The translations under genes and the position numbers were made by a program. From positions 1 through 64,000 of IMG/VR virus record IMGVR_UViG_3300023178_000023: a stretch of 64,000 nt of DNA; one strand, written 5' to 3'. Positions within the stretch are counted from its first letter, which is position 1. Every line of letters starts with the position of its first letter. The notes under the pieces were generated by a model. It made no database searches. It saw nothing but the letters and a program-made list of their open reading frames with translations, and was not told where the DNA came from. Positions 5,719-10,940 of this stretch are shown here, one piece after another. Source of the DNA: a virus.

Positions 5719-5795
5719 CCGCTCGTAGATCAACTGGATAGATCAACTGACTTCTAATCAGTAGGTTGAGGGTTCGAGTCCTTCCGAGCGGGCCA
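5719..5795 (+). tRNA. tRNA-Arg (anticodon UCU)
   Basis: Acceptor stem CCGCTCG (5719-5725) pairs with CGAGCGG (5785-5791), then G and an encoded CCA. The anticodon loop CTTCTAA sits in stem ACTGA/TCAGT, and the T-arm is GGTTCGAGTCC. Reads AGA/AGG, frequent codons in this AT-rich phage. Confidence 0.95.
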
Positions 5796-5802
5796 GATAA
5801 AT

Positions 5803-5914
5803 AGGGGAGACTACTAGGAAGAGGTAGAAACCAGTAAGGCAGAAATGGTTCTGATTTTATTGAAGCGACCTGAATCCCCTCAAACCGCGCACCAGAAAGG
5901 AACACCTAGTAGTC
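5803..5914 (+). ncRNA. Candidate pseudoknotted non-coding RNA
   Basis: No convincing gene lies between tRNA-Arg and the next CDS. Two long-range pairings interleave: AGGGGA (5803-5808) with TCCCCT (5875-5880), and GACTACTAGG (5809-5818) with CCTAGTAGTC (5905-5914). The first arms are adjacent and the order A-B-A'-B' is that of an H-type pseudoknot. It does not match tRNA, tmRNA or a ribozyme core I know. It could be a processing signal, a regulatory leader for the gene at 5938, or a separate RNA. Confidence 0.5.
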
Positions 5915-5937
5915 GTTAATTTAGAAAGGATAATGAA

Positions 5938-6237
5938 ATGGGTGTAACACCATCGACAGGAATGCCATTTGATGTTTATCAAGTGATGCAGGCGACAATG
6001 TATGGAACTCCACAAGCTCCACATTATCCTAATAGTGAAAATGTTAGACCCCCAGCGGGTAAAGATTCAAAACGTGTAGTAGAACCATCTACAAGGACTG
6101 ATGTAAATATAGATGTTTTACGAAGATGGGTTGAACAAAAAGATAGAATTGATGATAGTTTAGAAGATCTAAGACTTAGGACTTATTTCAATAAAGAACA
6201 AATTGAACAAGGAGCAATCTTAGATATAGAAGTTTAA
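5938..6237 (+). CDS. Hypothetical protein, 99 aa
   Basis: ATG preceded by AGAAAGGATAATGAA; the stop is immediately followed by the first base of tRNA-Gly. The N-terminus is Pro/Gly-rich (MGVTPSTGMPFDVYQVMQAT) and probably extended; the C-terminal half is helical and charged. No domain recognised. Its message must be cut to release the tRNA. Confidence 0.65.
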   Translation: MGVTPSTGMPFDVYQVMQATMYGTPQAPHYPNSENVRPPAGKDSKRVVEPSTRTDVNIDVLRRWVEQKDRIDDSLEDLRLRTYFNKEQIEQGAILDIEV

Positions 6238-6311
6238 GCGGGTATAGCATAGTGGTAATGTTACAGCCTTCCAAGCTGAAGATAGGAGTTCGATTCTCCT
6301 TACCCGCTCCA
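6238..6311 (+). tRNA. tRNA-Gly (anticodon UCC)
   Basis: GCGGGTA acceptor stem pairs with TACCCGC, then T and an encoded CCA. Anticodon loop CTTCCAA; T-arm GGAGTTCGATTCTCC. Starts on the base after the upstream stop codon. Confidence 0.95.
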
Positions 6312-6318
6312 AATAAAA

Positions 6319-6490
6319 ATCCATGGCGACGGCCTATGGATTGTGGTGACTGAATAAGTGGTAAGCGTGCCACTAAGGTATACACAAAGAGGGTAGCACC
6401 CTGTCTTAGCGGATGCAGTGTAGTTTGAAAGCGAGTTAGCCCGAGCGCTCAGTGCGAGTAGATGTAGGTAATCGGTAATCCTACCCACAA
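6319..6490 (+). ncRNA. Candidate structured RNA between tRNA genes
   Basis: The 187 bases between tRNA-Gly and tRNA-Pro hold no plausible gene and look richer in GC than the neighbours. Visible helices: ATCCAT/ATGGAT (6319-6324 with 6336-6341); a closing stem TTGTGG (6341-6346) with CCACAA (6485-6490); AGTGGTA/TGCCACT (6357-6363 with 6368-6374); CTAAG (6373-6377) with CTTAG (6405-6409) enclosing AGGGT/ACCCT (6390-6402); and GTAGG/CCTAC (6464-6468 with 6480-6484). Some are alternatives because they share bases. The last hairpin resembles a tRNA T-arm with an enlarged loop, so a decayed tRNA is possible. Confidence 0.45.
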
Positions 6491-6498
6491 CTTATAAA

Positions 6499-6575
<77 letters not shown>

Positions 6576-6587
6576 AACAGAAATTAT

Positions 6588-6662
6588 TCCGGCGTAGCTC
6601 AGCGGTAGAGCAGTTGACTGTTAATCAATTGGTCGTAGGTTCGATCCCTACCGCCGGAGCCA
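6588..6662 (+). tRNA. tRNA-Asn (anticodon GUU)
   Basis: TCCGGCG acceptor stem pairs with CGCCGGA, then G and an encoded CCA. Anticodon loop CTGTTAA; D-arm GCTCAGCGGTAGAGC. Confidence 0.95.
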
Positions 6663-6675
6663 GAAAGAGGCAAAA

Positions 6676-6963
6676 ATGTATAAACCTTTACCTGATAGCG
6701 TTACTATTAAAAAATCTGAAATCAATGGATTAGGACTCTTTGCAGTTGAACCTATTAAGGAAGGAACCGAAATAGGATTGTCTCATTTTTATTGGGGCGA
6801 TCAGTTACAGAGAACACCTTTAGGTGCTTTCTATAATCATTCCGAAGAACCTAATATCTTAAAGGTTCAAAGGGATAGTAGATTCTTTATTGTGGCTACA
6901 AGAGATATTTTGCCAGATGAAGAAATAACATGTAGATATACTTTTTATAATGTGGAGAAGTGA
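6676..6963 (+). CDS. SET-domain protein, 95 aa
   Basis: A compact SET domain covers the whole protein: INGLGLFAVEPIKEG (16-30) is the N-terminal SET strand pair, YNHSEEPN (53-60) the NHS..PN motif, and ATRDILPDEEITCRY (74-88) the A.R.I..GEE.T..Y motif with the catalytic Tyr. The fold binds S-adenosylmethionine and methylates protein lysines. The protein is short and lacks pre- and post-SET cysteines. Short SET proteins occur in several large phages with unknown substrates. AGAGG ribosome site upstream; lies between tRNA-Asn and tRNA-Thr. Confidence 0.8.
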   Translation: MYKPLPDSVTIKKSEINGLGLFAVEPIKEGTEIGLSHFYWGDQLQRTPLGAFYNHSEEPNILKVQRDSRFFIVATRDILPDEEITCRYTFYNVEK

Positions 6964-6965
6964 AA

Positions 6966-7148
6966 ATGACTCGTTATGGTTCAAGCACAAATGTAAAAGA
7001 TACTTGGAGTACTGATGATGATGGAAACATTCGTTTATCGTCATCTAAAGATTTCAAATCTTTAGGTATTCAAGATGCTGATACATTTGCAGCAGTAAAC
7101 ATCAACGGAAGTGTAGTGTTGGTTAAAATAGATATGGTATTGAAATAA
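6966..7148 (+). CDS. Hypothetical protein, 60 aa
   Basis: ATG at 6966 with GGAGAAG upstream, chosen over the in-frame GTG at 6960. Beta-rich small protein (MTRYGSSTNVKDTWSTDDDG, later NINGSVVLVKIDMVLK). The stop is directly followed by tRNA-Thr. No family recognised. Confidence 0.6.
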   Translation: MTRYGSSTNVKDTWSTDDDGNIRLSSSKDFKSLGIQDADTFAAVNINGSVVLVKIDMVLK

Positions 7149-7224
7149 GCCGCTCTAGCTCAGCTGGTAGAGCAACTGATTTGTAATCAGTGGGTCGGGG
7201 GTTCGAGTCCCTCGAGCGGCACCA
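7149..7224 (+). tRNA. tRNA-Thr (anticodon UGU)
   Basis: GCCGCTC acceptor stem pairs with GAGCGGC, then A and an encoded CCA. Anticodon loop TTTGTAA in CTGA/TCAG. Begins on the base after the upstream stop codon. Confidence 0.95.
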
Positions 7225-7226
7225 CC

Positions 7227-7312
7227 GCCTCTGTGGTGAAATAGGTAGACACAAGAGACTTAAAATCTCTCGACCTTAGGTCGTCCCAGTTCGAGTCTGG
7301 GTGGAGGCACCA
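7227..7312 (+). tRNA. tRNA-Leu (anticodon UAA)
   Basis: Class II tRNA: GCCTCTG acceptor stem pairs with TGGAGGC (two G-U pairs), encoded CCA. Anticodon loop CTTAAAA in GAGA/TCTC, long variable arm CGACCTTAGGTCG, T-arm CCCAGTTCGAGTCTGGG. Confidence 0.95.
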
Positions 7313-8064: not shown

Positions 8065-8327
8065 TGGGAAAGAAAAAACTAAGAGATAAATATACTTCTA
8101 AGGGCGAACGTAGAAGTGTTGCTAAGCACAACCGCACACCAATGCCAAAGAATACAATCGGTCGTTTGATTCGTCAGAGGGATGCCTGGAAAGAGGGCAA
8201 GAATGTTGTTATCACTATGGCAAATCCAAATCCAAATGAAACAAACAAAAAATTTATTAGAGTAAATGCTAGAGAACTTTGGGGAGATCCAAAGAAACAA
8301 AGAGCTTACTCCATGAAAGATGCTTGA
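8064..8327 (+). CDS. Hypothetical basic protein, 87 aa
   Basis: TAATG overlap with the upstream gene and TGATG overlap with the Mom-like gene, so it is translationally coupled to both. Lys/Arg-rich N-terminal half (MGKKKLRDKYTSKGERRSV), then a short beta segment (NVVITMANPNPNETNKKFI). No recognised domain. The context suggests it works with the Mom-like modification protein. Confidence 0.65.
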   Translation: MGKKKLRDKYTSKGERRSVAKHNRTPMPKNTIGRLIRQRDAWKEGKNVVITMANPNPNETNKKFIRVNARELWGDPKKQRAYSMKDA

Positions 8328-9133
8328 TGGTTGAATTTGACATAAAACCTTTGCATAAGAATAAAGCCTCTTTGTTTGTCGCAGAGAGGCACTATTCTGC
8401 TGTTATGCCTAGATTGACTAAACATTATCTTGGTTTTTTTGTCAAAGAAGAATTGATGGGTGTACTAACATTAGGGTGGGGCACAAATCCAATGGGAACA
8501 ATAAAGAAAATGTTTCCAGACTTGACAACAAAAGATTACTTTGAAATTGGCAAGATGTGTATGGACGAGACAATGCCAAGAAATTCTGAAAGTCAGATGT
8601 TATCGCAAACAGTTAAATGGATGAAACAGAATACTCCAGATATCAAATTTTTATACACTTGGGCAGATGGAATTGTGGGCAAGCCTGGCTATGTTTATCA
8701 ATCTGCTAACTTCTTGCATGGCGGTTTTATTTGGTCTGATGTTTATGTTTCAGAAACAGGAGAGAAAGTACACTTTAGAACCATCCAAAGACAAATGAAA
8801 AAAGAGATGGGTAGATTTGATACAAAATATGGCCCACGACCAAATGATGAAAAAATGGGTCAGCTAGGGTTTTCTAGAGTTTGGGGAAAGCAGTTTAGAT
8901 ATATCTATCCATTGACTAAAAAAGATAGAAAGTATATGAATAGATACTCGACTTGTAGTTGGGATAATAATTATCCTAAAGATAGTGATCTACAATGGAA
9001 GATAAAAAAACCAGGCGAAACAGAATATACTATCACTGATACAATGCCTTTTATACATAGTAAAGATGTTAAACACAATACTGCAAATATAAGAAGGTAT
9101 AAATCAGAAATAAGTATTGACGATTTTTTATAA
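8327..9133 (+). CDS. Mom-like GNAT protein, candidate DNA-modification enzyme
   Basis: 268 residues from the ATG at 8327 (TGATG overlap); a start at 8279 would be out of context. The N-terminal 175 residues have a GNAT-type pattern: KHYLGFFVKEELMGVLTLGW (38-57), FEIGKMCMDETMPRNSESQM (79-98), then KFLYTWADGIVGKPGYVYQ followed by a Phe/Gly-rich strand. This is close to the phage Mom family as I recall it; Mu Mom adds a carbamoylmethyl group to adenine N6 in phage DNA to resist restriction. Substrate and DNA target here are inferred. Identity rests on motif recall only. Confidence 0.65.
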   Translation: MVEFDIKPLHKNKASLFVAERHYSAVMPRLTKHYLGFFVKEELMGVLTLGWGTNPMGTIKKMFPDLTTKDYFEIGKMCMDETMPRNSESQMLSQTVKWMKQNTPDIKFLYTWADGIVGKPGYVYQSANFLHGGFIWSDVYVSETGEKVHFRTIQRQMKKEMGRFDTKYGPRPNDEKMGQLGFSRVWGKQFRYIYPLTKKDRKYMNRYSTCSWDNNYPKDSDLQWKIKKPGETEYTITDTMPFIHSKDVKHNTANIRRYKSEISIDDFL

Positions 9134-9710: not shown

Positions 9711-10178
9711 ATGGGATTTAATTTATCAAATAGATCGAAGGCAAAACTAGAAGGAGTGCATCCAGATATGGTTGCAGTCGTTGAGCGAGCCATAGAGCTC
9801 ACTAAAGTTGATTTTGGTGTCACTTATGGAGTTAGAACGCTTGAAGAACAGGAGAGACTTGTAGCAAGTGGTCGCTCACAGACTATGAAGTCTAAACATC
9901 TTATTCAAGACTCTGGTTATTCACATGCGGTGGATGTGGTAGCTTATGATGGGTCAGATGTTGTGTGGGAAATTAATGTATATGACGATATTTGTGATGC
10001 TTTCAAACAGGCCGCTGAAGAGCTTGGAGTAGCGATCAAGTGGGGTGCTGCTTGGTCAGAAGGCGATATCAGATCTTATTCTGGTACTGCTGAAGATGCT
10101 ATGAATGCATACATAGATCTTCGTCGCAGTCAAGGTCGGAGGCCTTTTATCGATGGGCCACACTTTGAACTTATGTGA
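9711..10178 (+). CDS. Endolysin, M15 L-Ala-D-Glu / D-Ala peptidase family
   Basis: 155 residues, a single M15 peptidase domain as in T5-type endolysins. Motifs: VTYGVRTLEEQERLVASG (37-54), SKH (61-63), SHAVDVV (71-77), and GPHFEL near the C-terminus (149-154). Likely zinc ligands are H63, D75 and H151. It cuts peptide crosslinks of peptidoglycan at lysis. There is no signal peptide, so it needs a holin or other export route; small membrane genes at 14300 and 14568 are candidates. Start supported by AGAAAGGA. Confidence 0.88.
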   Translation: MGFNLSNRSKAKLEGVHPDMVAVVERAIELTKVDFGVTYGVRTLEEQERLVASGRSQTMKSKHLIQDSGYSHAVDVVAYDGSDVVWEINVYDDICDAFKQAAEELGVAIKWGAAWSEGDIRSYSGTAEDAMNAYIDLRRSQGRRPFIDGPHFELM

Positions 10179-10204
10179 TATATTTGCAATACTTTAAAAA
10201 AGTG

Positions 10205-10235
10205 TTGACATGTCGTAATAATTGTGGTATAAATA
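10205..10235 (+). promoter_or_regulatory. tmRNA promoter with combined early and late elements
   Basis: TTGACA (10205-10210), 17-base spacer and TATAAA (10228-10233) make a near-consensus sigma-70 promoter. The -10 region is also a perfect T4 late motif, TATAAATA (10228-10235). Expression through both phases of infection is possible. Confidence 0.85.
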
Positions 10236-10239
10236 AATT

Positions 10240-10545
10240 CGTAATTGTTGATGCAATTCAAAACACATACTGGACTTGGGGGCAGTACCCAACGCCTCCA
10301 CCATAAATGCACTATGTCCTGCTGCATCAGGAAGTTATGCAGAACATAGGTTGCCCACGATGGGACGCCGAAGTTAGTGCATTTTTGATGGGGGCGAACT
10401 AGGATCGACAGGTGAGTAGAGATGAGTGGAGATTACCGTGGTGGCTTACGATATTCGGCCAACTAAACTAAATGCAAACGATAATTTTGCACCTTCTGAG
10501 TTCGCTCTAGCAGCGTAACCACAGGGGGTTGGCCACTCACCTAGC
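10240..10545 (+). ncRNA. ssrA: Circularly permuted two-piece tmRNA
   Basis: The acceptor piece comes first: T-arm TTGGG/CCCAA (10276-10280 with 10288-10292), then CGCCTCC (10293-10299), A and an encoded CCA ending at 10303. The coding piece starts at 10390 with GGGGGCG, which pairs with CGCCTCC to form the acceptor stem, followed by GAACTAGGATCGACAGG. The tag frame at 10474-10518 encodes ANDNFAPSEFALAA and stop. Helices GGCCAAC/GTTGGCC (10457-10463 with 10528-10534) and AGGTGAGT/ACTCACCT (10410-10417 with 10535-10542) enclose it. This layout is that of alphaproteobacterial tmRNA. The ends at 10240 and 10545 are estimates. Confidence 0.93.
10304..10389 (+). other. tmRNA intervening segment with processing stem
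   Basis: The spacer between acceptor and coding pieces is closed by a perfect 10-bp stem: AAATGCACTA (10305-10314) with TAGTGCATTT (10375-10384). Inside are the hairpin CTGCAT/ATGCAG and the pair CTATGT/ACATAG. It would hold the two tmRNA ends together until cleavage removes it. Confidence 0.8.
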
Positions 10546-10586
10546 AACAGAAGAAGTGGCGCTCATAATAAAAAGGAATAACAAAA

Positions 10587-10940
10587 ATGAGAAGTATTAT
10601 TTTGTCAGGTGCATTTGCACTTGTATTGGCAAGTTCGGCCGCAGCGATGGAACTTGGAAACGGTCTTTCATGGAACAATGAAGTGACAGCAGAAAGAAAT
10701 TTGGAAACAGAAACAAATAGCTTTACATTTGAAACTGATGTTGCATGGGATTTTGGATTGGGTACTTTAGAAGTCGGCCCAAATGTATTTGATCTTGAAA
10801 ATATTGAATGGACTTCAACAGAATACCAAGTAACTATGCCAGTCAAATTTCTTGATGGCGCAGAAGTTTTTACAAAAACATCTACCAATAGTGATTGGGA
10901 AATTGGTGACGTAACAATCGGCGCATCTTTCACATTCTAA
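10587..10940 (+). CDS. Secreted / outer-membrane-type small protein
   Basis: 117 residues. The signal peptide MRSIILSGAFALVLASSAAA ends with an Ala-x-Ala site, probably cleaved after residue 20. The mature part is beta-rich with alternating strands and ends in ...GASFTF; a C-terminal Phe is typical of outer-membrane beta barrels, though about 97 residues is short for a barrel. Preceded by AAAAGGAATAAC. Phage-encoded exported proteins of this kind may change the infected cell surface, for example superinfection exclusion; this is inference. A terminator follows. Confidence 0.75.
   Translation: MRSIILSGAFALVLASSAAAMELGNGLSWNNEVTAERNLETETNSFTFETDVAWDFGLGTLEVGPNVFDLENIEWTSTEYQVTMPVKFLDGAEVFTKTSTNSDWEIGDVTIGASFTF

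Follow-up and report, generated by a model that had tools for sequence, protein, structure and literature searches.

The 64,000-nucleotide stretch of viral DNA analysed here (the window) encodes a complete circularly permuted tmRNA at 10241-10563 on the plus strand, and this is probably a functional two-piece tmRNA of the phage's own, with an intervening sequence (IVS) that is cut out and serves as an exchangeable cargo cassette. The processing, charging and tagging of this RNA, and a function of its cargo, we infer from the sequence and its relatives.

The permuted tmRNA and the phage that carries it

Two covariance models and ARAGORN agree on the identification. In an Rfam scan of the 64-kb window, RF04321 matches positions 10241-10518 with 123.8 bits against a cut-off of 47 (E 9.8e-24) and RF01849 matches positions 10190-10563 with 123.2 bits against a cut-off of 50 (E 4e-33), while ARAGORN independently calls a permuted tmRNA with the tag ANDNFAPSEFALAA; the RF01849 match is the only one in the whole record (G000, 88,389 bases). 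The preliminary description of this DNA had proposed a phage-borne permuted tmRNA of the alphaproteobacterial type, with an RF01849 search as a check, and on both counts it is borne out. It had placed the locus at 10205-10545, an interval in which the features that it named are indeed found but whose end is slightly short, as the RF01849 match runs to 10563.

The acceptor piece precedes the coding piece. The former (10241-10303) comprises, according to the RF04321 and RF01849 alignments and the sequence, the D-arm-side strand, the T arm (10276-10292), the acceptor 3' strand CGCCTCC (10293-10299) and an encoded ACCA (10300-10303); the latter (10390-10563), delimited by the RF01849 match, contains the acceptor 5' strand GGGGGCG (10390-10396), the tag frame and a 3' part with the AGCAACAGAA motif. 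Between them lies the IVS cassette of 86 nt (10304-10389), for which the fold, the cassette clusters and the exchange among relatives lead us to expect excision. Across the IVS, the two acceptor strands rebuild a stem in which all seven pairs form, at the very positions where it had been drawn beforehand; the third pair is G:U (G3:U70), and the CCA end is encoded. G3:U70 is an identity element for alanyl-tRNA synthetase and, together with the CCA end, fits charging with alanine. The same pair was present in 54 of 54 distinct tmRNAs fetched independently of the pattern that fixes that base.

The RF01849 alignment reaches the end of the model but skips about 43 positions beyond the tag, and these missing positions of the 3' part partly explain the low score of the window, 123 bits where 7 of 13 cellular ssrA records reach 293.7-310.4 bits (the 13 together span 87-310). 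A group I intron in the tmRNA was ruled out: the insertion lies between the two pieces and outside the T loop, and the Rfam intron models have no match in the window, nor in 20 related loci at E values up to 0.1.

Directly upstream of the tmRNA stands the near-perfect promoter that had been credited to it, a sigma-70-like site at 10205-10233 (plus strand) with TTGACA at 10205-10210, TATAAA at 10228-10233, a spacing of 17 and 11 of 12 consensus matches; a consensus scan demanding T as the final base of the second hexamer leaves this site unlisted. Upstream sites with at least 10 of 12 matches occur in 105 of 152 tmRNA rows (one row being spurious), against 5 of 152 after one round of base shuffling. 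The record looks like a T4-like phage, again as first proposed: the PHROGs names among 10 scanned proteins include a single-strand DNA-binding protein, tail tube, baseplate hub and wedge, PhoH-like protein and exonuclease, and it is from this set taken together that the assignment comes. The upstream neighbour of the tmRNA (9711-10178, plus strand) is an endolysin-like gene, with a weak Pfam match to Peptidase_M15_4 below the cut-off and its closest annotated relative by tblastn in Roseobacter phage CRP-1 (82.6%). As this gene is nearest to those of Roseobacter phages, marine Rhodobacterales are a fair guess at the host, and no more. An identical tmRNA is also found on a contig of 203,815 bases (L003, in G014).

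The surroundings hold further genes. Positions 8279-9133 of the window match the Pfam Mom family with 164.1 bits and likely encode a DNA-modification protein; six tRNA genes, for Arg, Gly, Pro, Asn, Thr and Leu, lie at 5719-7312; and just 3' of the tmRNA (10587-10940) is an ORF of 117 aa that matches nothing in PHROGs and, judged by eye, may encode a small secreted protein.

The intervening sequence as cargo or filler

Our comparison draws on a convenience sample of tmRNAs, collected through endolysin neighbours, a tag pattern, an acceptor pattern (among the matches listed) and two cassette patterns. Its 326 sequences reduce to 157 distinct tmRNA rows, 2 of them rhizobial, 1 spurious and at least 154 from viral contigs, where some of the IMG/VR contigs may be of cellular or plasmid origin. 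The spurious row, a duplicate for L206 with a 414-nt spacer, enters the promoter count alone. Among close relatives of the endolysin-like gene, a permuted tmRNA was present in 25 of 80 contig records (18 of 40 and 7 of 40), many of these records being fragments. The 154 viral tmRNAs hold 138 distinct IVSs, and the 127 of at least 20 nt fall into 89 sequence clusters, 13 of which have no member of 45 nt or more. The median length of the viral IVSs is 85 nt, with quartiles of 53.25 and 110 nt; in 11 cellular ssrA records from a plasmid collection (3 more fetched records being unmeasurable), the IVS is 22-34 nt long in seven and 57-121 nt in four. The plasmid ssrA copies L329, L334, L335 and L336, from Bosea, Acetobacter and Methylobacterium, have IVSs of 57-121 nt, and that of the Bosea RAC05 plasmid has, by eye, phage-like arms.

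The ends of the IVSs pair with each other. Terminal arms with at least seven consecutive pairs occur in 107 of the 113 viral IVSs of 45 nt or more, against 2-8 of 113 in five shuffling rounds, and the IVS thus prolongs the acceptor stem into a single long hairpin. In the window, the arms are 10305-10314 and 10375-10384, and the region 10290-10396 has a predicted folding energy of -43.1 kcal/mol (z -3.91), with none of 200 shuffles equally stable.

Inside this hairpin, the window's IVS contains a predicted H-type pseudoknot at 10317-10345 (plus strand), supported by compensating changes among nine distinct sequences. Its stem pairs 10317-10321 with 10328-10332, the loop CTGCAT (10322-10327) pairs with ATGCAG (10337-10342), and a third helix joins 10334-10336 to 10343-10345; in the siblings, the loop pairing is CTGCAA with TTGCAG, and in L084 and L085, it is ATGCAC with GTGCAT. 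Across the nine sequences, whose rows were partly chosen by a pattern that requires the loop pairing, 93.6% of 140 cells are paired, and 11 of the 16 pairs have changed on both sides; none of 500 shuffles reaches the observed level, and slid controls give 36-51%. On these alignments, the window's IVS is a member of a pseudoknot family with covariation. The pattern of its cassette is present in 23 viral contigs, and its cluster comprises 10 tmRNAs across 6 backgrounds; of 47 matches to the cassette pattern, our script left 4 unplaced, 3 of them being tmRNAs by eye that the pattern missed and 1 being cut at the end of the locus. The pseudoknot was rejected as a general feature of the cassettes: a loose scan over the cassette clusters found it in 6 of 76, no excess over the average of 4.3 in shuffles, and a strict scan found 5 against 1.19, a small excess matched by 2 of 200 shuffles. 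Beyond the tmRNA models, no Rfam family overlaps an IVS in the 20 loci scanned at E values up to 0.1.

A hairpin with such variable contents could also arise if the tmRNA works but its IVS is a throw-away loop, of which only the hairpin ends matter and which ordinary recombination supplies with functionless filler. We regard this as unlikely. In its favour, 72 of the 89 viral IVS clusters consist of a single spacer, the lengths range from 4 to 298 nt, with 12 nt in L147, 18 nt in L159 and less than 10 nt in nine tmRNA rows, and pseudoknots are not in excess in the loose scan. Filler would not, however, be expected to show the covariation of the window's pseudoknot family, to recur as the same cassettes in tRNA arrays or to contain ORFs in which replacement changes are the rarer kind (pN < pS), and on these three observations, we prefer to see the IVS as cargo.

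The recurrence in tRNA arrays is clearest for a cassette of 92-94 nt that is common to 15 tmRNAs and is also found inside another inverted repeat within the tRNA arrays of L309, L315, L319 and L321; the contexts in these four are nearly the same, and they may thus represent one phage group. A relative of a second cassette (74.7% over 83 columns) follows a tRNA CCA end in the same four loci, the preceding tRNA sequence being a different one in L309, and a relative of part of a third cassette, identical over 44 nt, is found some 40 nt ahead of tRNA-Pro in L308 and L317. Two side observations concern such neighbourhoods. The tRNA-rich phage contig L309 ends in a partial GOLLD match below the cut-off, and near the tmRNA in L119 (2545-2716) and L127 (2616-2787), a manA RNA-like match of 40.6 bits, less than its cut-off of 55.2, stands beside a tRNA match.

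As for protein-coding cargo, 22 of the 104 IVSs of 60 nt or more contain an ORF that starts with ATG, has 25 codons or more and comes with a ribosome-binding-like site, a count made without a shuffled control and including two near-identical cases. In four ORF pairs, pN is smaller than pS (0.127/0.52 in L083/L202, 0.139/0.85 in L157/L206, 0.188/0.99 in L252/L263 and 0.092/0.204 in L082/L226), from few changes and without a significance test; the pair L164/L165 has a single difference, a replacement, and is uninformative. Five of the ORFs (L083, L202, L175, L203 and L268) extend beyond the IVS and end within the coding piece, at the UAG of its AAAUAGG. Relatives of the cargo ORFs are ordinary genes beside the tmRNA in other phages, two examples being a gene upstream of ssrA in Melnitz (L082) and one that lies downstream of the tmRNA in L303, and Pfam has no match for seven IVS-encoded proteins. 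From these patterns, it looks as if some cassettes encode micro-proteins whose sequence is under selection.

For a two-piece tmRNA with exchangeable cargo, the course of events could be as follows. Host RNA polymerase would transcribe the gene from the phage's own promoter, and the long IVS hairpin would present both processing sites, with RNase P cutting before G10390, 3' processing ending at A10303 and the IVS being released. The acceptor and coding pieces would remain paired, and host alanyl-tRNA synthetase and SmpB would load the paired RNA onto stalled ribosomes, which would be rescued, and their products would receive the ANDNFAPSEFALAA tag and be passed to host proteases. Once released, the IVS may act as a small hairpin RNA, while the ORF types would be translated from the precursor before it is cut.

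Tags, decoys and the exchange of cassettes

The tag ANDNFAPSEFALAA and its stop codon occupy 10474-10518 (plus strand); the frame is intact in the sequence and in the ARAGORN call, as had been noted at the outset, and it ends in ALAA, a tag of the hydrophobic-AA type. The exact tag is present in 36 viral contigs, all 36 of which score as permuted tmRNA, and a search with all synonymous codons, run without a positive control, returned no match in 84,980 cellular genomes. A shortened core of the tag gave two cellular matches, in a Ruminococcus and a Spirochaetales MAG, which are perhaps due to chance, and assignment of the host by its tag was dropped. The preliminary description had suggested a comparison with the host's ssrA tag: ANDNFAPSEFALAA does differ from the tags of all 13 alphaproteobacterial ssrA genes of cellular type that were taken from the plasmid collection (for example, ANDNRAPVALAA in Paracoccus and ANDNRAPMAMAA in Pseudorhodobacter). 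A tag was recognised in 145 of the 154 distinct viral tmRNAs, in 88 different versions, by a search that demands an AA ending, and several of the other nine are cut by contig ends. The impression of many tag-less phage tmRNAs was rejected, as most of the 29 rows that initially lacked a tag were misses of the pattern and only these nine remained with a wider one.

These numbers bear on the idea that the phage tmRNA interferes, competing with host tmRNA for SmpB or redirecting tagged products, and does not serve in rescue. We found no SmpB in the 88-kb record, which may be a fragment, and the host's SmpB would thus be required. In a related phage (G009), the contig with the full tmRNA has, some 3 kb away from it, a second locus with a tag-less permuted tRNA-like domain (L158, G009:C1:50282-50431, minus strand), the one clear case without a tag and possibly a decoy or a remnant. 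In the accessible text of PMC4131195, moreover, a TLD-only molecule resembling the one in phage DS6A is reported to inhibit tmRNA. Pure decoys would be expected to lose their tag, however, and the preservation of the tag in the window and in nearly all of its relatives makes interference rather improbable; a TLD-only decoy of the DS6A kind is ruled out for the window's tmRNA, its tag frame being present.

Evidence for exchange comes from comparing each IVS with its body, that is, the tmRNA flanks minus the IVS. Where two distinct viral tmRNAs have bodies of 95% identity or more (22 pairs), their IVSs belong to different clusters in 13 cases, a share that is raised by the collapsing of identical copies of tmRNA plus IVS; with bodies 85-95% identical, 7 of 23 pairs differ in IVS cluster and 16 share it. 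Bodies can be 100% identical with IVSs of different clusters, as in L232 against L247 and in L105 against L014, L015 and L019. The latter set concerns the window directly, because L014 has both its IVS type and its tag in common with the window, and L105, whose body is identical, has another IVS. The similarity can be followed beyond the gene: between L181 and L283, a stretch of 1,361 bp that extends as far as the IVS arm is 99.5% identical, and 109 bp on the other side are 97.2% identical. The reverse case is also found, with IVSs 99-100% identical in bodies 45-50% identical (the median over all pairs is 52%), and 12 of the 18 clusters with more than one tmRNA include bodies less than 70% identical to each other. 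The clearest case is the cassette common to 15 tmRNAs, which sits among different T arms, tags and acceptor stems, with acceptor strands of five kinds (CGCCTCC, CGACTCC, CAGCTCC, CTGCTCC and CAGGTCC) and borders at CCACCA and GGGG. On these comparisons, IVS cassettes move between bodies as units, and their borders at CCACCA and GGGG are the expected RNA-processing sites.

Could the exchange be an artefact of metagenome assembly, contigs having been joined across conserved tmRNA sequence? All contigs except Melnitz are metagenomic, some may re-assemble one sample, and the fifteenth tmRNA of the shared cassette (L310) has an acceptor stem of 6 of 7 pairs, as a chimera joined inside the cassette would show; L310 may be such a chimera or a crossover inside the cassette. 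In the other 14 of the 15, however, the five kinds of acceptor strand are fully compensated, which makes chimeras an improbable cause, and the shared cassette recurs in 26 contigs. Also, 4.4 kb of L105 and L014 can be aligned at 96.2%, with a match that flanks the differing IVSs by more than 1 kb on one side and by roughly 3 kb on the other, and the flanks of L236 and L304 match over 4.6 kb (90.7%) and 0.4 kb (89.1%). We consider the artefact mostly refuted and give it very little credit. Least credible of all is a recently captured host ssrA gene that is passively carried, for although the tmRNA is of the alphaproteobacterial type, its exact tag is unmatched in the cellular genomes scanned, the bodies differ widely with their acceptor pairing kept and homologues occur in many viral contigs.

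How the cassettes move is a question that their short borders pose clearly. Ordinary recombination through nearby conserved tmRNA sequence would be the simplest answer, but only about 8-10 common bases flank the shared cassette before the acceptor stems diverge. In locus L141 (1501-1984), three IVS cassettes follow one another within a single tmRNA; each has acceptor-stem halves and a CCA of its own, one is degenerate, and the 5' strand of the first is imperfect.

Taking the exchangeable cargo one step further, phage permuted tmRNA genes in general might be carriers of interchangeable cargo, structured RNAs and micro-proteins lying between processing sites, freed by tRNA-maturation enzymes, common to tRNA arrays and swapped as units with processing-site borders. 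We put this forward tentatively, with somewhat more doubt than conviction. If true, genes would be exchanged by a new route, recombination via short borders, which might even take place between RNAs with the help of phage RNA-repair enzymes. If the IVS is a cargo slot, one gene would have two jobs, ribosome rescue and the early delivery of small RNAs or micro-proteins, and the 89 viral IVS clusters would be candidates for unstudied phage RNAs and proteins of counter-defence or host take-over, and an easy place to look for more. Phage tmRNAs can pass for additional copies of a host housekeeping RNA. There is a warning for annotation too: in phage Melnitz, whose spacer holds an ORF, no gene is annotated within the tmRNA.

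Relation to known systems

The phage-encoded two-piece tmRNA is itself a known kind, and the preliminary description overstated its novelty, marine-phage examples having been published in 2022. The accessible text of that report (Buchholz et al. 2022, PMC9004378) describes one in phage Melnitz and finds, among 18,146 phage genomes, 402 phages with a tmRNA and 133 unique structures, 53 of them two-piece, with 50 of these 53 from marine or aquatic phages; the role proposed there is the upkeep of the hijacked machinery or the tagging of host proteins. A DNA search with the window's tmRNA found four Melnitz records as the only named phages, and blastn found no named phage with the window's cassette or the 15-tmRNA cassette. 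As far as the accessible text of PMC9004378 goes, Melnitz resembles the window in being a marine myophage with a permuted tmRNA of the alphaproteobacterial type and a promoter directly upstream, and the two tmRNAs are 75.3% identical over 47% of the query. Their tags differ (ANDNYVPVDYALAA in Melnitz); the Melnitz IVS holds an ORF, whereas that of the window holds a putative pseudoknot RNA, and a glutamine riboswitch match follows the Melnitz tmRNA (L118), whereas no such match in the window reaches the gathering score. The main text of PMC9004378 contains none of the words spacer, cassette and intervening.

With the alphaproteobacterial tmRNAs described by RF01849, the phage molecules share the order of the pieces, the T arm, the acceptor stem, a tag that mostly starts with ANDN and the 3' GCAACAGAA motif. 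They differ in a shorter 3' part, and the window's 86-nt IVS exceeds the 22-34 nt of most of the cellular records. The TLD-only tmRNA of mycobacteriophage DS6A, as presented in the accessible part of PMC4131195, is likewise a phage-borne tRNA-like domain, but the window has in addition a full coding piece and a tag.

The closest parallels to the cargo come from a 2025 tmRNA database (PMC11915505), whose accessible text mentions one permuted tmRNA with a tRNA-Ala gene in its IVS and one with a repetitive element. Like our cassettes, these cases indicate that an IVS is able to hold extra elements; unlike them, they are two single cases in records of cellular taxa, and the same text describes no exchange, no IVS ORFs and no link to phages. 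They are, as far as that text goes, precedents for cargo and not for exchange. In the literature that we searched, with subscription papers mostly outside it, we found no account of exchangeable tmRNA spacers. What is new here, and the most unusual part of the locus, is the exchangeable IVS, which the preliminary description had missed.
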